Assembly: GCF_009720525.1 (NCBI RefSeq) | Contig: NZ_CP043930.1 | Span: 6,150,001-6,214,000, forward strand | Reading direction: 5' to 3' | Length of the DNA: 64,000 nucleotides | From: Gimesia benthica | GTDB taxonomy: Bacteria > Planctomycetota > Planctomycetia > Planctomycetales > Planctomycetaceae | Shown: positions 18,902 to 36,608 of the stretch, one piece after another | Layout of the letters: each line of letters opens with the position of its first letter | Position numbering within the stretch: the first letter of the stretch is position 1 | The notes under the pieces: generated by a model | What the model saw: only the letters and a program-made list of their open reading frames with translations | Database searches by the model: none | What the model was told of the DNA's origin: nothing | Position numbers and translations under genes: made by a program

Positions 18902-19903
18902 TTAAAATTCTCCGATGACCTGTCCGTCGTCACGTACACACAGTTGACGGAGTGTGTTCATGTCGATGTTTTCAGACAGGAAGCGAACGGAGCCATCGGT
19001 CAGCACGGCGTGAATGCCACCCACGTGATGCGAGTTGAGTACCGTGTTAGCAGAATAGGCACTGTTGGCGTAAGTCGGTGCACCGGAAGTCCAGAAAGCA
19101 TTGGGAGGATTCCGTACGGTCGTGGTTCCGGCTGCATACCAGTAGCCACCCGAACTGAGGGGCAGCGGCGTGCCTGCATTCCAGGTGGAGAGACTGGCGT
19201 TGGCCCAGCCGTGCCAGGCACCCAGTGCATTCGCACCCTTCTGAGCTCCATTCACCTGACCGGACTGTTCGGCGAGGATGATGGTATTCGATGTTCCGTC
19301 GGTACAGTCGCGGAAACGGACACTCTTGTAGGGGATCATCATCCCGGTGTTACAGTTGCTGGAACTGCTCGCCAGCACATCACCGGTACAGACACTGGTG
19401 CGGCCCACGGGATCGGGGGTGGCACCGGAGATGCCAACGTAGTCGATGATCATACTCTGCAGACTGGGATCTGAGTTACTGTCAGACAGAGTGTAGTCAG
19501 TTGTGTTGGTCATGCCGTAGGGATTGGACGGACATTTGTAAACGGGGATACGGACCGAATACAAAATGGTGTTTCCCGGAAAACCGGAGTGGGCCCAGTA
19601 ACCATTGGGACGGGTCAGCTGCGAGTAGACATTGGCCTGATCGATGTAGGGCAGGATGGCAGCACGCCAGTTAGAGTAGGAACCGGTCTGTGTTCCGATG
19701 GGGAGCGCCAGAAAATTATCGTTGTAGTTGTGGAGTGCGAGTCCCAGCTGTTTCATATTGTTCTTACAGGTGGAACGGCGGGCTGCTTCGCGGGCCTGCT
19801 GGACAGCCGGCAGGAGCAGGGCGATCAGAATCGCGATGATGGCAATTACGACCAGCAGTTCAATGAGCGTAAAGCCACGTTTCGGGAGGGTACGTTTCAA
19901 CAT
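18902..19903 (-). CDS. DUF1559 protein with type IV pilin-like N-terminus
   Basis: A 333-residue planctomycete DUF1559 protein. The N-terminus KRGFTLIELLVVIAIIAILIALLLPAVQQAREAARR is a prepilin methylation signal and hydrophobic helix, and the C-terminus has the H-X9-DG module (HAVLTDGSVRFLSENID). ATG 19903 has AGGAA 8 bases upstream and is chosen over 19957, whose added residues would precede the prepilin leader. The family has many paralogues per genome, probably secreted through a type II/IV-like pseudopilin system; roles are unproven. Confidence 0.93.
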   Translation of the reverse strand: MLKRTLPKRGFTLIELLVVIAIIAILIALLLPAVQQAREAARRSTCKNNMKQLGLALHNYNDNFLALPIGTQTGSYSNWRAAILPYIDQANVYSQLTRPNGYWAHSGFPGNTILYSVRIPVYKCPSNPYGMTNTTDYTLSDSNSDPSLQSMIIDYVGISGATPDPVGRTSVCTGDVLASSSSNCNTGMMIPYKSVRFRDCTDGTSNTIILAEQSGQVNGAQKGANALGAWHGWANASLSTWNAGTPLPLSSGGYWYAAGTTTVRNPPNAFWTSGAPTYANSAYSANTVLNSHHVGGIHAVLTDGSVRFLSENIDMNTLRQLCVRDDGQVIGEF

Positions 19904-20281
19904 TGGTGGGTTCCTGGGAAAGAAAATGAGGCGGGAAAATTTCAGTTGTTGAAACATAAATGCAAAGCGGATGCCATATTTAACGATTATTAAAAAATAA
20001 AGTTAAATTGCACCTGATGTGATTCTGTCAGGACAGATTTTAATGATTATATGCAATGTGCTTGATGTGTTCTCGTGCTGTCATACATATGCTAAAACGC
20101 TTATTGAAAGGTGTTTAGGTGAGATCGGCGAATTCAGATTCTGTACAAAGGAGCAAAACGGAGTTTGATCGTCCATCATTGCAGAGGGGCGCGCAACTTG
20201 CCTGTTTTCTAATCAGAGCCTGCGCGGATTTTGGCATCAGGGTTCTGATCAATCGTTCTCTCTCTCTCTCAGAAATCCGGT
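19904..20281. other. A+T-rich intergenic region upstream of the DUF1559 gene
   Basis: About 378 bases between the DUF1559 start and the end of the LonB-like gene. The first 200 bases are very A+T-rich (ATTTAACGATTATTAAAAAATAA region), suiting a promoter for the DUF1559 gene. A (TC)n microsatellite of about 18 bases lies at 20254-20272. No gene is supported; small open frames here lack ribosome-binding sites and family features. Confidence 0.4.
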
Positions 20282-27348: not shown

Positions 27349-27524
27349 ATGCGCGGTACAAAATCTTTGTGCAGTGGCAACGCGAATCTTTGCTTTGTTT
27401 CTTAATGTTCCTGTGCAGGCAAGCCGCTGCCTGACGAGCTTCCAGTGTGGGCGCTGAGCGACCAGATTTCTGTGATCATGGCTGTTAAAGCGGCTCTGGC
27501 GGCTGTATGGGCGATTTCAGACAC

Positions 27525-27540
27525 TGGCATATGAATTGCA
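27525..27540 (+). promoter_or_regulatory. Sigma-54 promoter upstream of 27579 gene
   Basis: TGGCATATGAATTGCA matches the -24/-12 consensus TGGCACG-N4-TTGCA: GG and GC are separated by exactly 10 bases and the -12 half TTGCA is perfect. The predicted start near 27552 leaves a 27-base leader with AAGGAG. Confidence 0.7.
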
Positions 27541-27578
27541 CCTTAATCTGGCTGGTCCATTATTAAGGAGAACCCATC

Positions 27579-28067
27579 ATGGCATATCGCAAAGTAGAAG
27601 ATATTTTAGGACTGGTCGAGTCTTTTCATAAACGGATGCGTCAGGCTCTGGAACGCGTGGAAGTGGAATCCCGATCCGAAAGCGTAGAATGGCTCTCTAA
27701 ACAGTTACGGGCGCACGAACTGCACTGGCAGGCTGCTTTGAACGGATACGGGAAGCGGGTGGCAGAAGGCGTATTGGATACGTGGTTGCAGTACATTCCG
27801 GATGAGGATGTGCGCGAGCAGCTGGATTCAATCCGGGTACAGCGTGATATGACGCTGGACGAGTTGAATGATATGAATATCCGGTTTCGCCAGGCATTGA
27901 TTCAGTTGTATGAATCACTGGCCAATGGTTCTTCCGCACCGCGCGTCAAAGAACTGTTTGAGCAACTGCTGGAGTATGAAAAATCAGTGATCGCAGACCA
28001 GAGTCAGAAGTCTCGAGAATCGGACCTGGTGGATTCAGAGAGTCTGCCTCGGTCGCAGTCATCTTGA
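27579..28067 (+). CDS. Helical hypothetical protein, probably sigma-54 dependent
   Basis: The 162-residue product is almost entirely helical and charged (ILGLVESFHKRMRQALERVEVE, ESVEWLSKQLRAHELHWQAALNGYGKRV, VRELFEQLLEYEKSVIADQ), with a Ser-rich tail. It resembles bacterial four-helix stress or ferritin-like bundles in outline, but iron-binding residues are not evident, so no function is assigned. AAGGAG is 8 bases before the ATG. A near-consensus sigma-54 promoter precedes it and a strong bidirectional terminator follows it, so it is a single-gene transcript, presumably part of the local sigma-54 stress set. Confidence 0.75.
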   Translation: MAYRKVEDILGLVESFHKRMRQALERVEVESRSESVEWLSKQLRAHELHWQAALNGYGKRVAEGVLDTWLQYIPDEDVREQLDSIRVQRDMTLDELNDMNIRFRQALIQLYESLANGSSAPRVKELFEQLLEYEKSVIADQSQKSRESDLVDSESLPRSQSS

Positions 28068-28090
28068 TCGGCTCATGATTTAATGAAACG

Positions 28091-28136
28091 AAAAAAGCCC
28101 CGTGAAGCAGGTTGTGTTGCTTCCCGGGGCTTTTTT
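28091..28136. terminator. Bidirectional intrinsic terminator
   Basis: AAAAAAGCCCCG (28091-28102) and CGGGGCTTTTTT (28125-28136) form a perfect stem continued by GAAGCA/TGCTTC. Flanked by A6 and T6, it can terminate both the plus-strand gene ending at 28067 and the minus-strand gene ending at 28174. Confidence 0.92.
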
Positions 28137-28173
28137 GTATCTGCCGGACTTTGCAGACTGGTCTTCAATCAGA

Positions 28174-28686
28174 TCAGGACGGCGTGTCTGACCATTCCAG
28201 CTTATCGTGTTTCGGTGCTGTCGAAGTGAAGAAGAGTGCTCTTACCGCATCGGAGAGGTTTTGCACATTCGCATCCCAGTACTCAGCTTCTGCGACATGC
28301 ACGCAAATCAGCATCAGGCTGGGGTCTTCCGGACCGCCTGAAAACCATTCATTCAGGCTGTCGGTCCAGAGCAGCTCTGCTTTCTGCTTGTTCTGGATGA
28401 GTTGTGCCTGGCCAGCGATAGAGATGTATCGGTCTTCTTTCGGTTCTGAGTAAACAAGGTTGACGGTCGGGTCTCGTTCGATTTCCTTGACCTTGGGATC
28501 ATCGGCGTGGGTAAACAGCCAGAGTTCACCATCGAACTCATGCCGGGCTGTGATCATGGGTCTGCTTCTCAGACCCTGTTCGGAAGAGTGGGTTGTAAGC
28601 ATGCAGATTTTAATATCGCGGATCAGTTCACGCAGTGTCTCGATGGACTGCTGACGTTCCTGTTGTTTCGGTTCTTGCTGATTCAT
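28174..28686 (-). CDS. PPOX-class flavin-binding general stress protein
   Basis: A 170-residue pyridoxamine-5-phosphate-oxidase-fold protein of the general-stress-protein-26 type: IKICMLTTHSSEQGLRSRPM (first strands), GELWLFTHADDPKVKEIERDPTVNLVYSE, DRYISIAGQAQL, and a C-terminal WSDTP ending. Proteins of this kind bind FMN/FAD or F420 and act in redox stress; the substrate is unknown. ATG 28686 follows AGGTGA and replaces longer upstream starts. It follows the rhodanese gene on the same strand, separated by a hairpin. Confidence 0.85.
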   Translation of the reverse strand: MNQQEPKQQERQQSIETLRELIRDIKICMLTTHSSEQGLRSRPMITARHEFDGELWLFTHADDPKVKEIERDPTVNLVYSEPKEDRYISIAGQAQLIQNKQKAELLWTDSLNEWFSGGPEDPSLMLICVHVAEAEYWDANVQNLSDAVRALFFTSTAPKHDKLEWSDTPS

Positions 28687-28793
28687 TGATTCACCTGTTG
28701 ATTCTTTAATAATAAGCTGACCGATGAGAATGAATGAATTGGCAGGAAACATTTCCATCGGCCAGCGAGAAAGCGTAAGACGAGTGATCACCG

Positions 28794-28834
28794 GATGCGC
28801 TGGTTACTGATGGCATTTGAGTAACCAGTGCATC
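28794..28834 (-). terminator. Hairpin between rhodanese and PPOX genes
   Basis: GATGC-G-CTGGTTACT (28794-28808) pairs with AGTAACCAG-T-GCATC (28820-28834), 14 pairs with one mismatch and an 11-base loop. There is no T-run after it on the minus strand, so it may be a weak terminator, an mRNA-stabilising element or a processing site. The left arm on the minus strand also contains TGGTTACTCAAATGCC, a poor sigma-54-like match. Confidence 0.5.
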
Positions 28835-28857
28835 TCACTCAGTAAGGATCACTCGAA

Positions 28858-29193
28858 TTACGCTCCTGCAACGAGCTTTTCTCCGGCTTCGCTCCATGAC
28901 TTCGATCCCCCTTCGTAGTCATAGACATAGGAGAAGCCTGCCTCTTCCAGCTTTTGTGCAGCCTGCTCGGAGGAACCGCAATCCTCGCTCGCACAATAAA
29001 CGATAACGGTCTGTTCTTTACTGCCAGCCGCCTGTTCCACCTGCGAGACGAAATCGTCCTGCTGTTGAGGGATGTTCATGGAATTCGGGATATGTGCCTT
29101 CTGGAAGTCATCCTGTGACAGGGTGTTGACCAGAATACCTTTTTCATTACGCTGCATTTTGCCGCGGAGTTCTTCGGTCGAGATCGTTTGCAT
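28858..29193 (-). CDS. Rhodanese-like sulfurtransferase domain protein
   Basis: A single-domain rhodanese of 111 residues with active-site Cys67 in YCASEDCGSS and the family core AHIPNSMNIP at 33-42. Such proteins carry persulfide sulfur in cyanide or sulfide detoxification or sulfur delivery; the partner is unknown. ATG 29193 has a perfect AGGAGG 7 bases upstream, which rejects the longer ATG at 29262. A near-consensus sigma-54 promoter (29246-29261) precedes it, placing it in the local stress regulon. The second cysteine, C-E-D-C, in the active loop is unusual. Confidence 0.9.
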   Translation of the reverse strand: MQTISTEELRGKMQRNEKGILVNTLSQDDFQKAHIPNSMNIPQQQDDFVSQVEQAAGSKEQTVIVYCASEDCGSSEQAAQKLEEAGFSYVYDYEGGSKSWSEAGEKLVAGA

Positions 29194-29245
29194 GATCGTC
29201 CTCCTGAATTGATTAAAAACTTTTGTAGTAACAGTCGGAGAAGAG

Positions 29246-29261
29246 TGCAAAACGCATACCA
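29246..29261 (-). promoter_or_regulatory. Sigma-54 promoter of the rhodanese gene
   Basis: Reverse strand TGGTATGCGTTTTGCA: GG and GC are exactly 10 bases apart, the -12 half TTTGCA is perfect, and the -24 half TGGTATG differs slightly from TGGCACG. Predicted transcription start near 29234, about 40 bases before ATG 29193. Confidence 0.65.
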
Positions 29262-29379
29262 CGACGGTACCGCTTTTGCTGATATTGAGGAAGGGCTGGT
29301 TAATACCACGAATGCCCCTGCTTCAGCAGAGATGAGTTTCATTTATCAGGGATTCATCTCGGGCCTGATGAGTTGATCG

Positions 29380-29411
29380 GACAGACTGTCGCATCGGTGC
29401 GACAGTCTGTC
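29380..29411 (+). terminator. Perfect 14-bp stem with TCGG loop and T-tract
   Basis: GACAGACTGTCGCA and TGCGACAGTCTGTC are perfectly complementary across a TCGG tetraloop, followed by GTGGTTTTTG on the plus strand. It looks like a terminator, although no plus-strand gene lies upstream (the rhodanese gene is divergent). It may end an unseen small RNA from 29262-29380, or act as a protein-binding site upstream of the exchanger gene at 29515. Confidence 0.5.
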
Positions 29412-29514
29412 GTGGTTTTTGTGGGATGGGATTGTGGTCTGAGCGTTCGTTCTGGTCGTTTGTCAGTCTTATCGCAAGCTAAGTTATTTCAGATAGAAAG
29501 AAGTTGTTGACTCA

Positions 29515-30579
29515 ATGTCATTAATCGAGTTGCAGACAAATCCGCTGGTTTTGAATGTGGTCCTGTTCAGTCTCGCAGCCGGGGGAGTCTGGTTATGTGG
29601 TTCCAGGCTGAGTTATTACGTTGATCTGATCGCAGAACGCACGGGGATTGGAAAAGCGTTCGCCGGGGCGTTGCTGCTGGGAGGTGCGACCAGCCTGCCT
29701 GAACTGGGGACTACACTCAGTGCCTCTGTCTCGGGGGCTGCGGAGATGGCGGGGAACAATCTGCTGGGCGGGGTGGTGATGCAGATCGCAGTGCTGGCCG
29801 TACTGGATGCGATTTTCCTGCGGAACAAACCGCTGACCCTGTTCTCTCCTAAAGCAACGCTCCTGGTGCAGGGGGTGTTTTTGATCCTGATGTTGAGCTT
29901 CAGTATCATTACGTTGGTGACCGGCGAACTGCTAGTGGTCTGGGGAGTGGGGCTCTGGCCCGTGCTGCTATTCCTGGCCTATCTGTTTTGCCTGGGAGTA
30001 TTTCATCGCTATGAAGGGGAACCGCGGTGGGAACCAGCGGGAGAATTCAAGCAGCCGATTGAATCGCCTCGTGATGTAAAAAATGCGCATCCCGAATATC
30101 GAGATCTGAGTACCCGGCAGCTGGTGATACGCTTTGTTCTGGCTGCGGCTGGTGTGCTGGTGAGCGGCTTTGTCGTGGCGCGGACGGGAGAAGTGCTGGC
30201 GGATCAAAGTGGTCTTGGCCAGAGCCTGATCGGTGCGACGCTGGTCGCGCTGGCGACCAGTCTGCCGGAGTTGAGTACTACGTGGACGGCAGTTCGTTTC
30301 GGTGCTTACAGTATGGCGGTGGCAAATATTCTGGGGACGAACCTGCTGGAAGTCGCGCTGTTTCTACCTGCCGACTTGGCTTATCGGGAGGGAGCAATTA
30401 TTGACAGCCTGGATCCCTCTGCAAGTTTTCTGGCAGCGCTGGGAATCATTTGCACTGGACTGTATCTCTGGGGGATACTCGAACGCCGCGATAAGACCAT
30501 CCTGGGGATGGGCTACGATTCGGCCATGATTTTGCTGGTTTATTTCAGTGGCATGGGCCTGTATTACTATGTGCTTTGA
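29515..30579 (+). CDS. CaCA-family cation exchanger (Na+/Ca2+ antiporter-like)
   Basis: A 354-residue inner-membrane protein with about 10-11 helices and two CaCA alpha-repeats: GGATSLPELGTT at about 60-71 and ALATSLPELSTT at about 242-253. The acidic Glu in each SLPE supports cation binding. The family exchanges Ca2+ for Na+ or H+; the ion here is not decidable. A hydrophilic loop (RYEGEPRWEPAGEFKQPIES) separates the halves. A perfect hairpin lies 100 bases upstream. A paralogue is at 36752. Confidence 0.9.
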   Translation: MSLIELQTNPLVLNVVLFSLAAGGVWLCGSRLSYYVDLIAERTGIGKAFAGALLLGGATSLPELGTTLSASVSGAAEMAGNNLLGGVVMQIAVLAVLDAIFLRNKPLTLFSPKATLLVQGVFLILMLSFSIITLVTGELLVVWGVGLWPVLLFLAYLFCLGVFHRYEGEPRWEPAGEFKQPIESPRDVKNAHPEYRDLSTRQLVIRFVLAAAGVLVSGFVVARTGEVLADQSGLGQSLIGATLVALATSLPELSTTWTAVRFGAYSMAVANILGTNLLEVALFLPADLAYREGAIIDSLDPSASFLAALGIICTGLYLWGILERRDKTILGMGYDSAMILLVYFSGMGLYYYVL

Positions 30580-30600
30580 GCAATAGATAACCGATGTCTG

Positions 30601-32553
30601 TCAGGCCTGTTTCTGCCGGGACGAACGTGCCCAGTTGATCAATCCGCCTGCGAGCAGGATCTCACGCTGACGTTCTGAGAGCCCATGTCGAGCTGTGATG
30701 GTGTTGTGACCATTGATATGGACCTGGATTGTCGGCTGATCTGCGACCTGATGCCTGAGTGATTCCATATGCAACAGTACGTTCTGCTCAATCTCTGCGT
30801 AATCGTCCGGGTTTTCAAACGTGAGGGGGATAATGCCGAAGTTGACGAGGTTCTGCCAGTGGATGCGGGCAAAGCTTTTGGCGATGACCAGTCGCAGCCC
30901 GAGATAGCGTGGAGCGAGCGCTGCATGTTCGCGACTGGAGCCCTGTCCGTAGTTTTCTCCGGCGACGATTGAATGACCGCCCGCTTCGCGAACGTCCTGG
31001 GCGTCTTCTGCATAATGGGAGTCGATCTGCTCGAATGCGAAGCGACTGATTTCGGGAATATTGCTGCGATAGGGGAGGACTCGGGCACCCGCGGGCAGGA
31101 TTTCGTCCGTCGAGATGTTATCGCGCATTTTGAGTAGTATGGGAACCTCGAGTTCATCGGGCAGGGGTTCAAATTCCGGGATGGATTTAATATTTGGTCC
31201 TTTGCGGAGTTCGAACTGAGTGAGGTTGTCGTCCGTAGGCGGTGCCTGAAAGAGTTCGTCGCGACTGGTCCGAACCTGGGGGATCTCGATTGAGGGGCAG
31301 GGCATTTCCAGGGTACGGGGGTCGGTAATGCATCCGGATAATGCGGAAGCGGCAGCCGTCTCGGGACTGACCAGGCAGACCTTGTCTTCCCGGGTTCCAC
31401 TCCGCCCGGGAAAGTTGCGAGGAACGGTTCGCAGACTGATCTGATCGGTGGCGGGCGCCTGCCCCATGCCGATGCAGCCATTGCATCCCGCCTGGTGAAT
31501 GCGGGCACCAGACTGGATCAACGCACCCAGAGCACTCTGTTCGACCAGGGACATCAGGATCTGCCGTGAACTGGGATTGATGTCGAGTGATACGCGCGGA
31601 TGAATGCGGCGGCCTCGGACGATTTCGGCAGCGATGGCGAAGTCGCGATAGCCGGGATTGGCAGAGGAACCGATGTAGGCCTGGTAGATCGGTGGGCCGG
31701 CCTGTTCGCGAACAGTGTGCACATTGCCCGGACTGGAGGGGAGTGCGATCAATGGTTCGAGGGCCCCCAGATCGATTTCGTCCTCAATGTCATAGCTGGC
31801 ATTCGCGTCGGCTGTCTGTTCCGTATAATCGTCCGCGCGTCCCTGTTCGTGCAGGAAATGCTGAATCTCTGTGTCAGCCGGGAAGACCGTGGCGGTTGCG
31901 CCAAGCTCCGCACCCATATTGGCGATCACGTGACGGTCCATGGCCGAGAGCTGTTCCAGACCGGGACCGTGGTATTCGATAATGCGATTCACGGCTCCTT
32001 TGACGTCGTGCCGACGCAACATTTCGAGGATCACATCTTTCGCACTGACCCATTCGGGGAGTGTGCCCGTGAGATGAACGCCCCAGATCTCGGGCATCTT
32101 GAGATAGAAGGGAAAGCCTGCCATGGCCATCGCGACTTCGAGTCCACCTGCGCCGATAGCCAGCATGCCGAGTGCACTGGCGGAACAGGTATGGCTGTCT
32201 GAACCGAGCAATGTTTTGCCTGGCTTGCCGAAATATTCCTGATGCAGGGGATGACTGACGCCATTCCCGGGACGACTGAACCAGAGGCCGAAACGCTGAC
32301 AGGCGCTTTGCAGGAAGAGATGGTCATCGGGATTTTTGAAGTCTTCCTGCAAGAGATTATGATCGACGTACTGCACGGAAACTTCGGTCTGCACGCGATC
32401 GAGCTGCATCGCTTCGAGTTCCAGCATGACCAGGGTGCCGGTGGCGTCCTGAGTGAGTGTCTGATCGATGTGGAGACCGATTTCTTCTCCCGGTTTCATA
32501 GAACCTTCGACCAGATGCGAGCGGATGAGCTTTTGAGCAAGATTAGCGGCCAT
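30601..32553 (-). CDS. Aconitate hydratase (short bacterial aconitase)
   Basis: A 650-residue aconitase/homoaconitase-superfamily protein, shorter than AcnA (about 890). The [4Fe-4S] cluster cysteines are in GSDSHTCSASA (about 136-146) and GCNGCIGMGQAPA (about 378-390); the swivel domain has the active-site loop YGQGSSREHAALAP. It should isomerise citrate to isocitrate in the cytoplasm or act on a related substrate. AAGGAG precedes the ATG by 8. A convergent exchanger gene ends 21 bases away. The size fits short aconitases of planctomycetes and thermophiles. Confidence 0.9.
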   Translation of the reverse strand: MAANLAQKLIRSHLVEGSMKPGEEIGLHIDQTLTQDATGTLVMLELEAMQLDRVQTEVSVQYVDHNLLQEDFKNPDDHLFLQSACQRFGLWFSRPGNGVSHPLHQEYFGKPGKTLLGSDSHTCSASALGMLAIGAGGLEVAMAMAGFPFYLKMPEIWGVHLTGTLPEWVSAKDVILEMLRRHDVKGAVNRIIEYHGPGLEQLSAMDRHVIANMGAELGATATVFPADTEIQHFLHEQGRADDYTEQTADANASYDIEDEIDLGALEPLIALPSSPGNVHTVREQAGPPIYQAYIGSSANPGYRDFAIAAEIVRGRRIHPRVSLDINPSSRQILMSLVEQSALGALIQSGARIHQAGCNGCIGMGQAPATDQISLRTVPRNFPGRSGTREDKVCLVSPETAAASALSGCITDPRTLEMPCPSIEIPQVRTSRDELFQAPPTDDNLTQFELRKGPNIKSIPEFEPLPDELEVPILLKMRDNISTDEILPAGARVLPYRSNIPEISRFAFEQIDSHYAEDAQDVREAGGHSIVAGENYGQGSSREHAALAPRYLGLRLVIAKSFARIHWQNLVNFGIIPLTFENPDDYAEIEQNVLLHMESLRHQVADQPTIQVHINGHNTITARHGLSERQREILLAGGLINWARSSRQKQA

Positions 32554-32734
32554 GACTGACTCCTTGGAAAGGGCGGGCGCTGAGAGCCCATTGATCTTGG
32601 CGCGAGTGGATCGTGCTTTGATTCAGTGAACCCGCTTAAAAATTGATTGTAAGTTGTAATGTTGCACCAGGGCCGGACCCTGCCTTATCGGCCGCGGAGC
32701 TGAATTGTCTCCTCGAAGTGTTGTGTTCCTGTTG

Positions 32735-33091
32735 TTACGACATCCCCGGTGTTTGTTCGTACCAGCAGCGGGGAGGCTGACTGGCCCGGTTGGGCACCAG
32801 GGCAAACATCAATAATAATAAGCCGGTCATGATCAGGTTCTGGAGTGCGGGGGGAATAGGAGCCGGGACGGCGAAACGTCCATAGCCGATCATGGCCAGC
32901 GCAAGAAAGAAGATCGCTAAATGTGCGTGGCGCAGTGGCGGCCAGTAAGAAACCAGGCTGAGGCAGATGACCAGTAGGGCACTGACCCAGGTTACTGTTG
33001 TCAACGCAGGCACCTGTTCTCCCGCAGGGAAGATAAAGGGACTGATGGCCAGCCAGCAGCCCAACATGAATTCAATGACGCGCGACCACAT
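32735..33091 (-). CDS. SPW-repeat-like small membrane protein
   Basis: A 118-residue membrane protein with four helices. It starts MWSRVIEFMLGCWLAISPFIF, resembling SPW-repeat proteins (W...G.WL..SPF). ATG 33091 follows AAGGGAG and replaces an upstream start that would lie inside the VKOR gene. It is the third gene in the epimerase-VKOR-SPW run and starts just after the VKOR stop (33111). Function unknown; SPW proteins may stabilise membranes under stress. Confidence 0.7.
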   Translation of the reverse strand: MWSRVIEFMLGCWLAISPFIFPAGEQVPALTTVTWVSALLVICLSLVSYWPPLRHAHLAIFFLALAMIGYGRFAVPAPIPPALQNLIMTGLLLLMFALVPNRASQPPRCWYEQTPGMS

Positions 33092-33110
33092 GCGATTCTC
33101 CCTTGATAAC

Positions 33111-33752
33111 TCAGGTTCTCTGTACCATCTCACTGGCGATTTCATCGGCGATTTTTGTGGGACGTCCCCAGAGCACCTGCCAGAGCACTTTTTTGTCGTG
33201 TGTCCGCTGCCAGACGCGATAGAGCAGCTTGAGTGAGGCGTAGACTTCGTCATAAGCCATCACGACCAGTACCAGTGAGATGACCGCGGTGATCAGACAG
33301 AGCAGACACCAGTTGCCGACAATCGTTGCCTGGCAGACGACGAGAATCGCACTGACGATTCCCAGCGGAATGACATCGATCCCAAACAGAATGACCAGCC
33401 AGGGACGGTATTGCCAGCGACGGGTCGAGCCTGCCAAACCGAAGATCGCATCACCCAGATACGCGAGCGCACCGAGAGCTGCGTCCGGCACCCCGAACCA
33501 GTAATGCATTTTAAGAGCGACATCTGAGGTCAGTACCTTACGCGTCTGTTCGCCGAAGACCGGATCCCAGGGAGCTTCAATCAGCCCCCACTGAAAGAGG
33601 GCCATATGCCCTGCCAGTAAGAAGGCGATGCTGGCCAGAATGCAGATCGGAATTCGCTGACTCCAGGTGGACGGGTTATAATCGAACGGCGGAACTGCGA
33701 CCTCAAGGTCAGCCTGTTCTGCGGGATACCCTTTGAGCGATAACTGGCTCAT
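33111..33752 (-). CDS. VKOR-family disulfide-generating membrane protein
   Basis: A 213-residue vitamin K epoxide reductase-fold protein with 4-5 helices and an active-site CLLC at 149-152 preceded by Cys140. VKORs oxidise thioredoxin-like partners and pass electrons to quinone. Loop cysteines expected between helices 1 and 2 are absent here, so the internal relay to partner proteins may differ. No fused thioredoxin domain is present. The start overlaps the upstream epimerase stop (ATGA, 33749-33752), so they are coupled. Confidence 0.8.
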
Positions 33753-34852
33753 TTCCGGGCTCCCGTGGCTTCGAGCTGCGGTAAGTCATCTGGGACCGGC
33801 AGACCGTTTTCTTCATACCAGGCTTTGGGATCGTCGAGCAGCGCGTCGATCATGTCGGGCAGTGTTTCGCGGAGCAGGTGCCGGGGTTCCCAGCCGAGCT
33901 GTTCCCGGGCCCGTTCCGCGCTGACCGGATAGTTCTGGTCGGCCAGATCGATCATCCAGGGTTTGATGAACGGGGCGTCTGAGTCAGCTGCGAGCTGATC
34001 TTTCACCCACGCACCTGCCTTGGCGGCTGCTTTGGGAATCCGAATGGCAGGCCACTGGTCCCCATGGAGATAGAGTCCGATTTTTTCCTGCAGTTCTTCA
34101 TAGCTCATGACGTCTTCTTCACCGATAACGAACAGACTGTGTTCCGGAAGTCGGCGGCGATGACCGATGACTGCTTCGAAACAGCCGACCAGATCGTTCA
34201 GATGCAGAAAGGCCTGGCCGTGTGTTTTGTCGCCGGGGAAGAAATAACTTTCCAGCTTCTTCTGGAAGATACGAGAGATCTGCTGCCCGATGGGAATCGA
34301 GTGACACTGCTCATCATAGACGCCGGCCAGTCGCAGAATGACGGTCGGAATCGATCCGGCGTACTGCCGAATGGTGGACTCGGCTTCCAGCTTGGACTGG
34401 GGATATTGCCATTCCGCTTCGACGGGTGAGGAAGCCTGAATAAGCTCCCCTTCGTCGGCCGACTTTTGCACCAGCAGAGAACTCGAGAAGATAAACTGCT
34501 CGACGTCAAAATCCTGCAGTCCCTGTAGGAGCCGCCGGGTGCCAGCCACGGTCAGGTCCTGGTACAGCGGGCTCGGCTCGCCGGAAAAGTCGTAGTAGGC
34601 GGCCAGGTGAACCACGCTGGCGATTTTACTGCCGTGCTGAGCCTTGAGGTCTGACAGTGCGCGGGCGACCGAATCATCGTCTGTCAGATCACAGGAAATC
34701 CACTCTGCGGAATGCTGCTCTTCGGGCAGTGGTTTGACATCAAAGGCGACCACCTGGAACTGTTCTGAGAACGCTTGTACGAGTCGTGTGCCGATCAACC
34801 CGGCTGCTCCGGTAACCAGAATAACGGGTTTCTCTATCGATGTGCCATTCAT
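33749..34852 (-). CDS. NAD-dependent epimerase/dehydratase-family protein
   Basis: A 367-residue extended SDR-type protein: Rossmann motif [14 protein letters not shown] at about 14-27, [24 protein letters not shown] (catalytic Ser region), then [11 protein letters not shown] with YxxxK. Substrate unclear; sugar-nucleotide or sterol-like. ATG 34852 follows GGGAGG by 8, so 34918 is rejected. It heads an operon with VKOR and SPW-like genes under a sigma-54 promoter at 34902-34917, divergent from the regulator. Confidence 0.88.
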
Positions 34853-34901
34853 GCTCTGCCTCCCTTCTGTCGGTTTCGATTGAAATTCAGAGAAAGAACG
34901 C

Positions 34902-34917
34902 CGCAACTGGGATGCCA
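34902..34917 (-). promoter_or_regulatory. Sigma-54 promoter of the epimerase-VKOR-SPW operon
   Basis: Reverse strand TGGCATCCCAGTTGCG: -24 TGGCATC and -12 TTGC, with GG and GC 10 bases apart. Predicted start about 34889, giving a leader of about 38 bases to ATG 34852. Confidence 0.7.
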
Positions 34918-35101
34918 AGCAGGGATTTTTCCACTGGTTTGCAACAATCTGCAGAGAATGCAGTCATATTGCCGTACTTATGACTTTCGGCATGTCAGAT
35001 TGACTTTCCCGTTGATCGCTGAGCCGTCAGGCTGATTGCTGACCAGCCCGAGAACAGGGCGGAATAATGCTAAAAGAAACGATTCTATGTGCAATTCTCC
35101 A

Positions 35102-35117
35102 TGGCACGGGCTTTGCG
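35102..35117 (+). promoter_or_regulatory. Sigma-54 promoter of the regulator gene
   Basis: TGGCACGGGCTTTGCG carries a perfect -24 half (TGGCACG) and -12 TTGC, 10 bases between GG and GC. The start is predicted near 35128, 38 bases before the ATG. The gene for a sigma-54 activator is therefore itself under sigma-54, suggesting positive autoregulation. Confidence 0.75.
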
Positions 35118-35165
35118 AAACTGAAAAGTAACGTAAGTCTGTTCAGAAGGGGGGAGAACAAAAAC

Positions 35166-36608
35166 ATGTCTAACAACCACTTATTGCTCATTTCAGAAGA
35201 ACAATCTTCAGACTCAAAAATATACAACTGGTTTTCAAAACAGGATTTCTGTCAAACTCAGTGCTGTGTGCCGAGTGAGGTATCACAGCACCTGGAACAG
35301 AGGGTCGACCTGATTCTCTGTGATACCGGAGAGGATGTCAGTATCTCGCTGGAACTGCTTTATCTCGGTAAACAACAGGCACCTGAAGTGCCTTTTCTGA
35401 TTGTGTCACAGACCAGTGATGTCGCGACAGCGGTCGCCGCGATGAAACAGGGGGCAGACGAATTTCTGGTCAAGCCGTTGCAGCCTGAATCGCTGGTCAA
35501 ATTAATTAAGGGATATCTGCAGGCTCGACAATCGCGAGTCGCTGTAGAAGAGCAGCACGGATCCAGCACTGCGCGACTGGGGCGTTACGTGGGGTTTGAA
35601 ACAATGGTGGGGGCGACCCAGGTCATGCAGCAGCTGTTTGAGCGGGCGCAGCGTGTCGCCGACACAGACAGTACGGTATTGATTACGGGAGAATCGGGAA
35701 CCGGAAAGGAACTGCTGGCCGAGGCGATTCATCGTAACAGTCTGCGTGCAGAACATCCCTTTGTGACGATCAACATGGCTGCGGTGCCGGAACACCTGGT
35801 GGAAAGTGAACTGTTCGGGCATGTGAAAGGTTCCTTCACCGACGCCAGTGAATCACGGGTGGGCCGTTTTGAGGCAGCGCATGGCGGAACCCTGTTCATC
35901 GACGAAATCGGAGACTTCAAACTGGAGTCGCAGGCCAGACTGCTACGAGTGCTGGAGAATCACCGGGTGACCCTGATCGGCAGTAACCGCGACCGGGAAG
36001 TGGATGTGCGTGTCATCGCGGCGACCAGTCATCCATTACAGCAGATGGTACAGACGGGAGACTTTCGCGAAGATCTGTTCTATCGGCTGAATGTCGTCAA
36101 TCTGGCCTTGCCGCCTCTACGCGAACGGCGGGATGACATACCGGTGCTGGTGAACTTTTTTCTGACACAGCTGTGTCAGGATCTCAAACGTGATGTGCCG
36201 CAGCTGGATCCCGAGCTGGAGGCCTGGCTGCGGAATGGCCACTGGCCGGGCAATATTCGGCAGCTGCGTAACTGCCTGGAGAGTATGCTGGTGCTGTCGC
36301 GGGAAGAAGTGCTGACGCTGGCCGATCTGCCCGAGATGATGAACGGGGGGCAGCTGGCAGCAGGCCAGATTGCGATTCCTGCAGGAACCCGGCTGGAGGA
36401 TCTGGAACGCACGGCGATCGAGCAGACGCTCAAACGTTATCGGGGAAACCGGACCCAGTCGGCCCGCTCACTGGGAGTTTCCGTGAGGACGCTGCAGAGA
36501 AAGTTGAAAGCCTGGGGGGTGATGTCGGACTCTCGCGGGAATGGTCAATCGGAGGAAACAGCGAAGCTCGGGCTGCAGGGATCGGGGACGATTTCTACTT
36601 CGCGTTGA
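35166..36608 (+). CDS. NtrC-type sigma-54 enhancer-binding regulator
   Basis: A 480-residue regulator with an N-terminal receiver-like domain (about 1-120; [12 protein letters not shown] and [11 protein letters not shown]), an AAA+ domain (about 140-370: GESGTGKE Walker [10 protein letters not shown] Walker B) and a Fis helix-turn-helix (about 430-460: [22 protein letters not shown]). The sigma-54-contact loop GAFTGA reads GSFTDA, a variant keeping the key Thr. ATG 35166 has GGGGAG upstream. It is preceded by its own sigma-54 promoter and divergent from the epimerase operon; other sigma-54 promoters nearby suggest it controls them. A sensor kinase is not in the window. Confidence 0.93.

Follow-up and report, generated by a model that had tools for sequence, protein, structure and literature searches.

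Does the sigma-54 activator gene that lies in a 64,000-nucleotide stretch of the Gimesia benthica genome serve its neighbours alone, or does it stand at the centre of a wider network? The stretch, hereafter the window, covers positions 6150001-6214000 of the single-contig 8.03-Mb genome, and window coordinates are used throughout unless "own genome" is stated. A preliminary description had placed four -24/-12 promoters around this gene and had interpreted the locus as a compact, self-regulating stress island. All four sites were recovered at these places, each with the arrangement GG-N10-GC, and a fifth site that had been missed was found in front of a DUF1559 gene. On balance we favour, as fairly probable, the view that the island forms an autoregulated hub for a larger sigma-54 regulon of stress-type genes, whose NtrC-type activator would read tandem palindromes. 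Autoregulation, as judged from the DNA, and common control of the island thus survive from the earlier interpretation, whereas its compact, local character does not: because the same tandem enhancer lies at 9 of the 36 sigma-54 sites outside the window, the locus is better described as the hub of a regulon than as a compact cassette. The five promoter sites are the following.

27525..27540, plus strand: sigma-54 site of the helical-protein gene, rank 1 in the window
29246..29261, minus strand: sigma-54 site of the rhodanese gene, kept in 8 of the 8 genomes that have the gene
34902..34917, minus strand: sigma-54 site of the epimerase operon, kept in 8 of the 8 same-genus genomes that have the gene
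35102..35117, plus strand: sigma-54 site of the activator gene (predicted autoregulation), present in 7 of 7 intact orthologues, own included
19961..19976, minus strand: fifth sigma-54 site, TGGCATCCGCTTTGCA, 57 nt before the ATG of the DUF1559 gene

The 17-mers of the first four sites are CTGGCATATGAATTGCA (27524, plus), GTGGTATGCGTTTTGCA (29262, minus), TTGGCATCCCAGTTGCG (34918, minus) and ATGGCACGGGCTTTGCG (35101, plus), and they end 38, 52, 49 and 48 nt before the ATGs of the helical-protein, rhodanese, epimerase and activator genes, respectively; they come close to the consensus TGGCAYN5TTGCW. Scanning of the whole window with a sigma-54 weight matrix based on literature frequencies placed these four at ranks 1, 3, 5 and 8. 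The remaining places among the top eight were taken by the fifth site (19977, minus; rank 4) and by three sites outside the island, at 2294 (plus), 59747 (plus) and 10336 (minus), which hold ranks 2, 6 and 7. Eight sites in the window scored at least 13, whereas 10 order-2 Markov simulations averaged 2.0. The strict pattern TGGYAYN5TTGCR occurs 41 times in the genome and the same pattern reversed, our control, 16 times; the strict/reversed counts in five relatives were 60/15, 51/9, 53/10, 41/25 and 45/17, and the excess in the relative with 53 sites, G009, is inflated because 14 of the 53 are one insertion-sequence site. In 100,000 random placements, the grouping of five of the 41 strict sites within 15.2 kb had a probability of 4e-5, and that of four within 7.6 kb a probability of 3e-4. 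The genome contains a single match to rpoN and 19 matches to the sigma-54 activator domain at E below 1e-50, besides further weaker ones.

Comparison with relatives (59 genomes, own included, were searched for activator orthologues; labels G005-G057) revealed that the five -24/-12 sites are kept at a near-constant distance from the ATG in Gimesia-like genomes, even where the activator itself is 56-59% identical. The site of the helical-protein gene is found in 11 of the 11 same-genus genomes with the gene, weakly (11.1) in G014, and that of the DUF1559 gene in 8 of 8 genomes with the gene. The rhodanese site reads TGGAAT instead of TGGTAT in three distant relatives; the epimerase site is also present in the distant G057 and not in the distant G039, and the activator site also precedes a shortened activator gene in G009. 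In the alignments the promoters stand out against poorly conserved intergenic surroundings. As judged by their sequence and its persistence, the five island sites are real, evolutionarily conserved sigma-54 promoters. Synteny, too, was borne out, with the order DUF1559-LonB-Hsp20-(SPFH x2)-helical-PPOX-rhodanese-CaCA1-(aconitase)-SPW/VKOR/epimerase-activator being kept apart from the absence of both SPFH genes and aconitase in three distant relatives and of CaCA1 in G009. Of the redox and ion-transport genes, aconitase, PPOX and both CaCA genes have no conserved sigma-54 site of their own. Best upstream scores at these genes and at LonB, Hsp20 and SPFH1/2 were at most 10, at positions unshared across the clade. 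PPOX and aconitase lie downstream of, and on the same strand as, rhodanese and SPW respectively, so that read-through is possible.

The preliminary description had also suggested looking for a shared upstream element, and a tandem palindrome was indeed found near the helical-protein and the epimerase/activator promoters. This candidate enhancer consists of two 17-bp palindromes, TGAnCGCTnAGCGnTCA, with a start-to-start distance of 20 bp, about two helical turns, and starts about 70-190 bp upstream of the -24 element.

27428..27444, plus strand: enhancer copy 1 of the helical-protein promoter, TGCCTGACGAGCTTCCA, from the motif search
27448..27464, plus strand: enhancer copy 2 of the helical-protein promoter, TGGGCGCTGAGCGACCA, 20 bp from copy 1, held-out pair score 24.4
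35013..35029, no strand assigned: enhancer copy 1 of the divergent epimerase/activator region, TGATCGCTGAGCCGTCA, from the motif search
35033..35049, no strand assigned: enhancer copy 2 of the divergent epimerase/activator region, TGATTGCTGACCAGCCC, 20 bp from copy 1, from the motif search
29433..29469, minus strand: weak tandem enhancer-like pair at -208 from the rhodanese -24 element, score 7.2 in the own genome and 13.5 in G009

Since the pair in the divergent epimerase/activator region lies between the two promoters, it can act in both directions. In the own genome, G012, G011, G014 and G007, that is, in all aligned activator-bearing genomes, a strong element occupies the intergenic region that the activator gene shares with the gene divergent to it. 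Expectation-maximisation (EM) with a motif width of 17 on the activator, epimerase (G009) and helical-protein promoters reached a log-likelihood of 92.0, compared to 24.7-29.2 in 4 first-order randomisations, a comparison that favours the motif because orthologues are among the input sequences. When the motif was constrained to be palindromic, odd widths from 15 to 21 were mutually consistent and even widths gave a shifted form; unconstrained runs gave motifs that differed by species group, including GACAAACTGtC-like words, and were rejected. At the epimerase gene of the distant G057, which has the sigma-54 site, no tandem element was found. An inverted repeat, GACAGACTGTCGCA-TCGG-TGCGACAGTCTGTC, was noticed by eye at 29386-29417 in the divergent rhodanese/CaCA1 region and is largely kept in close relatives; GACAaACTGTC words resembling it occur upstream of the activator gene in distant relatives.

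We then asked how far the element extends beyond the island, scoring the 36 distal strict sites that, with the 5 in the window, make up the 41. A first matrix was trained on the activator sites of the own genome, G011, G014 and G007, the epimerase site of G009 and the helical-protein sites of the own genome, G011/G014, G007, G005, G013 and G009, so its scores for these training promoters are not independent. To avoid circularity, a second matrix was built from six activator/epimerase sites only (own, G011, G014, G007 and G009). Arbitrary 300-bp windows from the 64-kb window, mostly coding and not matched intergenic DNA, served as the null. With the first matrix, 8 of the 36 distal sites scored at least 8, compared to a maximum of 4.7 in 359 overlapping null windows. 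With the second, 9 of the 36 upstream regions exceeded the maximum of 10.6 among 357 overlapping null windows (Fisher P=1.7e-10, with the threshold placed at the null maximum), and the same nine remained above that maximum with 179 non-overlapping windows. None of 300 column-permuted palindromic matrices reached nine (mean 0.23, highest 7). When spacings from 17 to 44 bp were compared, nine regions were obtained at 20 bp alone, and every other spacing let 0-3 of the 36 pass.

The nine targets encode a small lipoprotein, a DW-rich secreted protein, a DJ-1/PfpI protein, an AI-2E permease, a BLH phosphatase (a family that we take to be the former DUF442), a five-BON-domain protein, a two-transmembrane (2TM) protein, a GY-rich protein and a BrkB-family protein. 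Two further genes have looser sigma-54 sites, one for a DUF1328 protein with a single palindrome and one for a Rho_N protein with the tandem pair. In G014, where all 60 sigma-54 sites were scored, 9 carry a tandem element of at least 8 (null maximum, 4.7), and these precede the epimerase and activator genes (both in the training set) and genes for DW-rich, Mn-catalase, 2TM, DUF326 cysteine-rich, 96-aa, BLH phosphatase and GY-rich proteins. Orthology of distal targets between the own genome and G014 was judged by eye from translations, and their overlap supports one conserved regulon. Gene kinds such as BON, DJ-1 and catalase are typical of general-stress regulons, and the Pfam kinds of the target genes match these kinds. 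In the planctomycete Rhodopirellula baltica, heat, cold and salt each induce a common set of 62 genes (PMC2754498), which includes genes for Mn-catalase, a DUF442 protein, a PPOX and a DUF1559 protein, and thus overlaps by kind of protein with the genes described here. From the gene kinds and by this analogy, we infer that the trigger of the regulon would be stress.

What would the activator at the centre of this regulon do? Its gene lies as follows.

35166..36608, plus strand: enhancer-binding activator with a receiver, an AAA+ sigma-54 activator domain and a Fis-type helix-turn-helix (HTH); PF00158 5.1e-69, PF02954 1.6e-12, PF00072 4.4e-9

Intact orthologues (E<=1e-120) are present in 7 of the 59 genomes, own included, three of them at 89-92% and three at 56-59% identity. 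The best NCBIfam matches are ntrC (9e-111), AtoC (8e-102) and ZraR (5e-92), and none of the best 25 of 65 NCBIfam matches reaches its cut-off. The Asp at position 53 fits a phosphoacceptor by eye; no histidine kinase was found among the 20 window proteins scanned with Pfam. The loop that contacts sigma-54 reads GSFTDA in the own activator and GSFTGA in the six other intact orthologues. In NorR, a change of the second Gly of GAFTGA to Asp (G266D) frees the protein from its sensor domain (PMC2941729). The island activator has the same class of substitution in the loop, so that constitutive activity is a possibility, suggested by analogy; it has a receiver where NorR has a GAF sensor. The substitution need not mean lost control, because a GAFTDA loop is kept in another activator of both the own genome and G013 (own_L366/G013_L340).

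What can be read directly in the DNA is that the promoters and tandem elements exist, occur together and are conserved, and on this basis the site and the strong enhancer before the activator's own gene point to autoregulation. In the mechanism that we propose, the NtrC-type activator, probably phosphorylated by a kinase, would bind both 17-bp palindromes, 20 bp apart, and would contact sigma-54 RNA polymerase by looping. The promoters opened in this way would be those of its own gene, the epimerase-VKOR-SPW operon and the helical-protein gene, more weakly that of the rhodanese gene, and those of distant stress-type genes.

Several findings weigh against this reading. Within the island the element is strong at the helical-protein and epimerase/activator promoters, weak at rhodanese and absent at DUF1559, and six more distant helical-family genes (in G039, G034, G019, G023 and G031, and a second copy in G014) have no sigma-54 site at equal distance. 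Single palindromes, with at most 2 mismatches allowed, show no genome-wide enrichment (60 occurrences, compared to 129 for the reversed control), and consequently the element is informative only as a tandem beside a sigma-54 site. The 36 distal regions are not jointly above the null windows (Mann-Whitney P=0.15), and the 27 outside the nine have a median of -6.5 against -5.6 in the null; the signal is thus limited to a subset, as expected if the regulon comprises part of the sites. A strong tandem element (24.8) with no sigma-54 site within 300 bp lies at 387109-387145 of the own genome (L161), one of its copies (387129) being perfect, about 315-350 bp upstream of a second activator gene, own_L369. 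The activator also diverges fast, with 56-57% identity between the own genome and G014, compared to 73-97% between the own genome and G013 for 13 other activators, which might fit an accessory or amplifying regulator. Finally, the element persists in genomes in which the activator does not. The activator gene of G009 is an in-frame shortened version (C1, about 5395700-5396220, within L099), so that about 45 N-terminal residues run into the Fis HTH and the AAA+ core is gone, while its sigma-54 site and tandem element are intact. Of the 53 strict sites of G009, 42 distal ones were scored with flanks, another 4 belong to the island, and 7 are copies of an insertion-sequence site that were left out; tandem elements of at least 8 were kept at 5 of the 42 distal sites in addition to the island ones. 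G013 has no orthologue of the island activator; all 41 of its strict sites were scored, and three of them (AI-2E, lipoprotein and 2TM) have the tandem element, as does its helical-protein promoter, a site in the training set of the first matrix. In G007 and G012 the sites were counted only. Because G009 and G013 keep enhancers without an intact copy of the activator, it is doubtful that the island activator is the sole reader; unless the elements there are relics, something else reads them, and a second, perhaps older, activator probably shares the element, as its distribution among the genomes suggests.

How do other explanations fare against these data? The simplest holds that a short consensus has been matched by chance and that no common control acts on the island. 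Comparable sites do occur in the window at 2294, 59747 and 10336, and even the reversed control matches 16 times genome-wide; set against this are the conservation at near-fixed distance in 7-11 genomes, the clustering (P=4e-5) and the tandem element upstream of 3 of the 5 sites, and because of the conservation and clustering we regard chance as an exceedingly improbable source of the five. Another explanation divides the control in two, with the activator serving the island only and the distal genes, which have similar palindromes, obeying another regulator. Similar binding sites are possible among Fis-type HTHs of this family, and the rhodanese and DUF1559 promoters do not follow one rule. 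One matrix, one spacing of 20 bp and one range of distances nevertheless fit island and distal promoters alike, and they do so again in the independently analysed G014, so that a division of this sort seems very unlikely.

More serious is the proposal that the tandem element is read mainly by an older, genus-wide enhancer-binding protein, of which the island activator would be a target or a young amplifying paralogue in a feed-forward arrangement. The elements in G013, where the activator is missing, and in G009, where it is shortened, are what this proposal predicts, and the 13 other activators common to the own genome and G013 at 73-97% would provide candidates. By nearest HTH these are own_L368/G013_L342, with an identical LGVSVRTL stretch, own_L361/G013_L336 and G013 L350; comparing the HTHs of the own and G013 activators and placing these activators in a tree yielded candidates only. 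A tandem element upstream of G013 L337 (14.5) was set aside, as it has no counterpart at the same place in the own genome. Against an older main reader stand the strong element that accompanies the activator gene in every aligned genome that bears it, an identity of at most about 43% over the HTH for the G013 activators, a tree that groups the island activator with none of them (its deep forks are unresolved), and the lack of a strong tandem element near own_L368/G013_L342. We therefore hold an older main reader to be rather unlikely, and continue to prefer the island as autoregulated hub. Going further, and tentatively, we envisage as a possible though less likely scheme that the genus runs its general stress response with sigma-54 and enhancer-binding proteins on one tandem palindromic code, without a dedicated stress sigma factor; at least two activators would share the code, the fast-evolving autoregulated island activator would amplify, and the loss of the AAA+ core in G009 would have turned the amplifier into a competitor that only binds DNA.

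How does this system compare with known ones? Enhancers of bacterial enhancer-binding proteins are dyad sites, often in tandem, located tens to about 200 bp upstream of the -24 element, and the island element fits this description in both its tandem dyads and its upstream distance. Tandem dyad enhancers and autoregulation are common features of the NtrC family, and the island activator has the same receiver-AAA+-Fis domain order as NtrC, AtoC and ZraR; it differs from them in its stress-type targets, its GSFTDA loop and the lack of a kinase among the window proteins scanned. The sigma-S, sigma-B and EcfG general stress responses use a dedicated sigma factor for similar kinds of genes (BON, CsbD, catalase, DJ-1 and small membrane proteins), whereas the island regulon would use sigma-54 plus an enhancer instead.

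Within the Planctomycetia, predicted sigma-54 promoters are reported to be enriched before chaperone, MscS, Usp and NtrC/ZraR-like genes (PLoS One 2025, PMC12316311). In the portions of that study considered here, no enhancer is assigned to these regulons and ZraR is named only as a kind of predicted activator gene; its main text makes no mention of upstream activation, catalase, rhodanese or general stress. The R. baltica study concerns another organism and family; its authors suggest rpoN control for a thioredoxin gene, and the portions of its text considered here propose no activator or enhancer for the common set (PMC2754498). The portions considered of a further paper (PMC3162934) make no mention of planctomycetes. 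This kind of system is already known; a search of open-access literature did not turn up this regulon or its enhancer code for the genus. In the literature examined, no regulator is assigned to the common stress response of planctomycetes, despite their many regulators. With the tandem enhancer and the promoter set defined and an activator named, planctomycete stress control becomes directly testable; the matrix can be used to find the regulon in other planctomycetes, and relatives without the activator or with a shortened one offer natural comparisons for the rewiring of an enhancer network.

The gene identities of the preliminary description (rhodanese, PPOX, two CaCA, aconitase, epimerase, VKOR, SPW and NtrC-type activator) agreed with Pfam. 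The other island genes are given below.

18905..19903, minus strand: DUF1559/N-methylated pseudopilin gene with its own sigma-54 promoter and without the tandem enhancer; PF07596 8.8e-57, PF07963 1.3e-8
27579..28067, plus strand: 162-aa four-helix protein without Pfam or NCBIfam match; AlphaFold 2 (AF2) model
28174..28689, minus strand: PPOX-type flavin protein, downstream of rhodanese; PF16242 1.3e-44
28858..29193, minus strand: rhodanese; PF00581 6.4e-17
32735..33091, minus strand: SPW-repeat membrane protein; PF03779 1.9e-8
33111..33752, minus strand: VKOR-family membrane protein; PF07884 1.8e-19
33749..34852, minus strand: NAD-dependent epimerase/dehydratase, first gene of the presumed epimerase-VKOR-SPW operon; PF01370 1.3e-21

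In its AF2 model the helical protein is predicted to be a four-helix bundle resembling ferritin/Dps/YciF, and a full E/ExxH di-iron set was not evident in the invariant or nearly invariant columns of the alignment.

Other sigma-54 sites were noted in the genome-wide scan. A GroEL-like gene, recognised by eye, has one about 180 nt upstream, without the tandem enhancer, in the own genome (L032, own genome 5270801), G009 (L320) and, apparently, G014 (L224). A CsbD-like gene (L017, own genome 1845584; L191 in G014; L273 in G009) has one 71-72 nt upstream, with a weak tandem enhancer or none. As expected for nitrogen control, an identical site, TGGTATATGTTTTGCA, lies 66 nt upstream of a gene that by eye is glutamine synthetase-like (L025, own genome 3049723; L196 in G014; L146 in G013). 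A near-perfect site, TGGCACGTAATTTGCG, precedes the start of a DDE transposase gene (PF13701; L059, own genome 6465560) by about 57-60 nt. This is the site that occurs 14 times among the 53 strict sites of G009, where the transposase was seen in the copies examined, for example L268; it marks an insertion sequence whose promoter is sigma-54-like.

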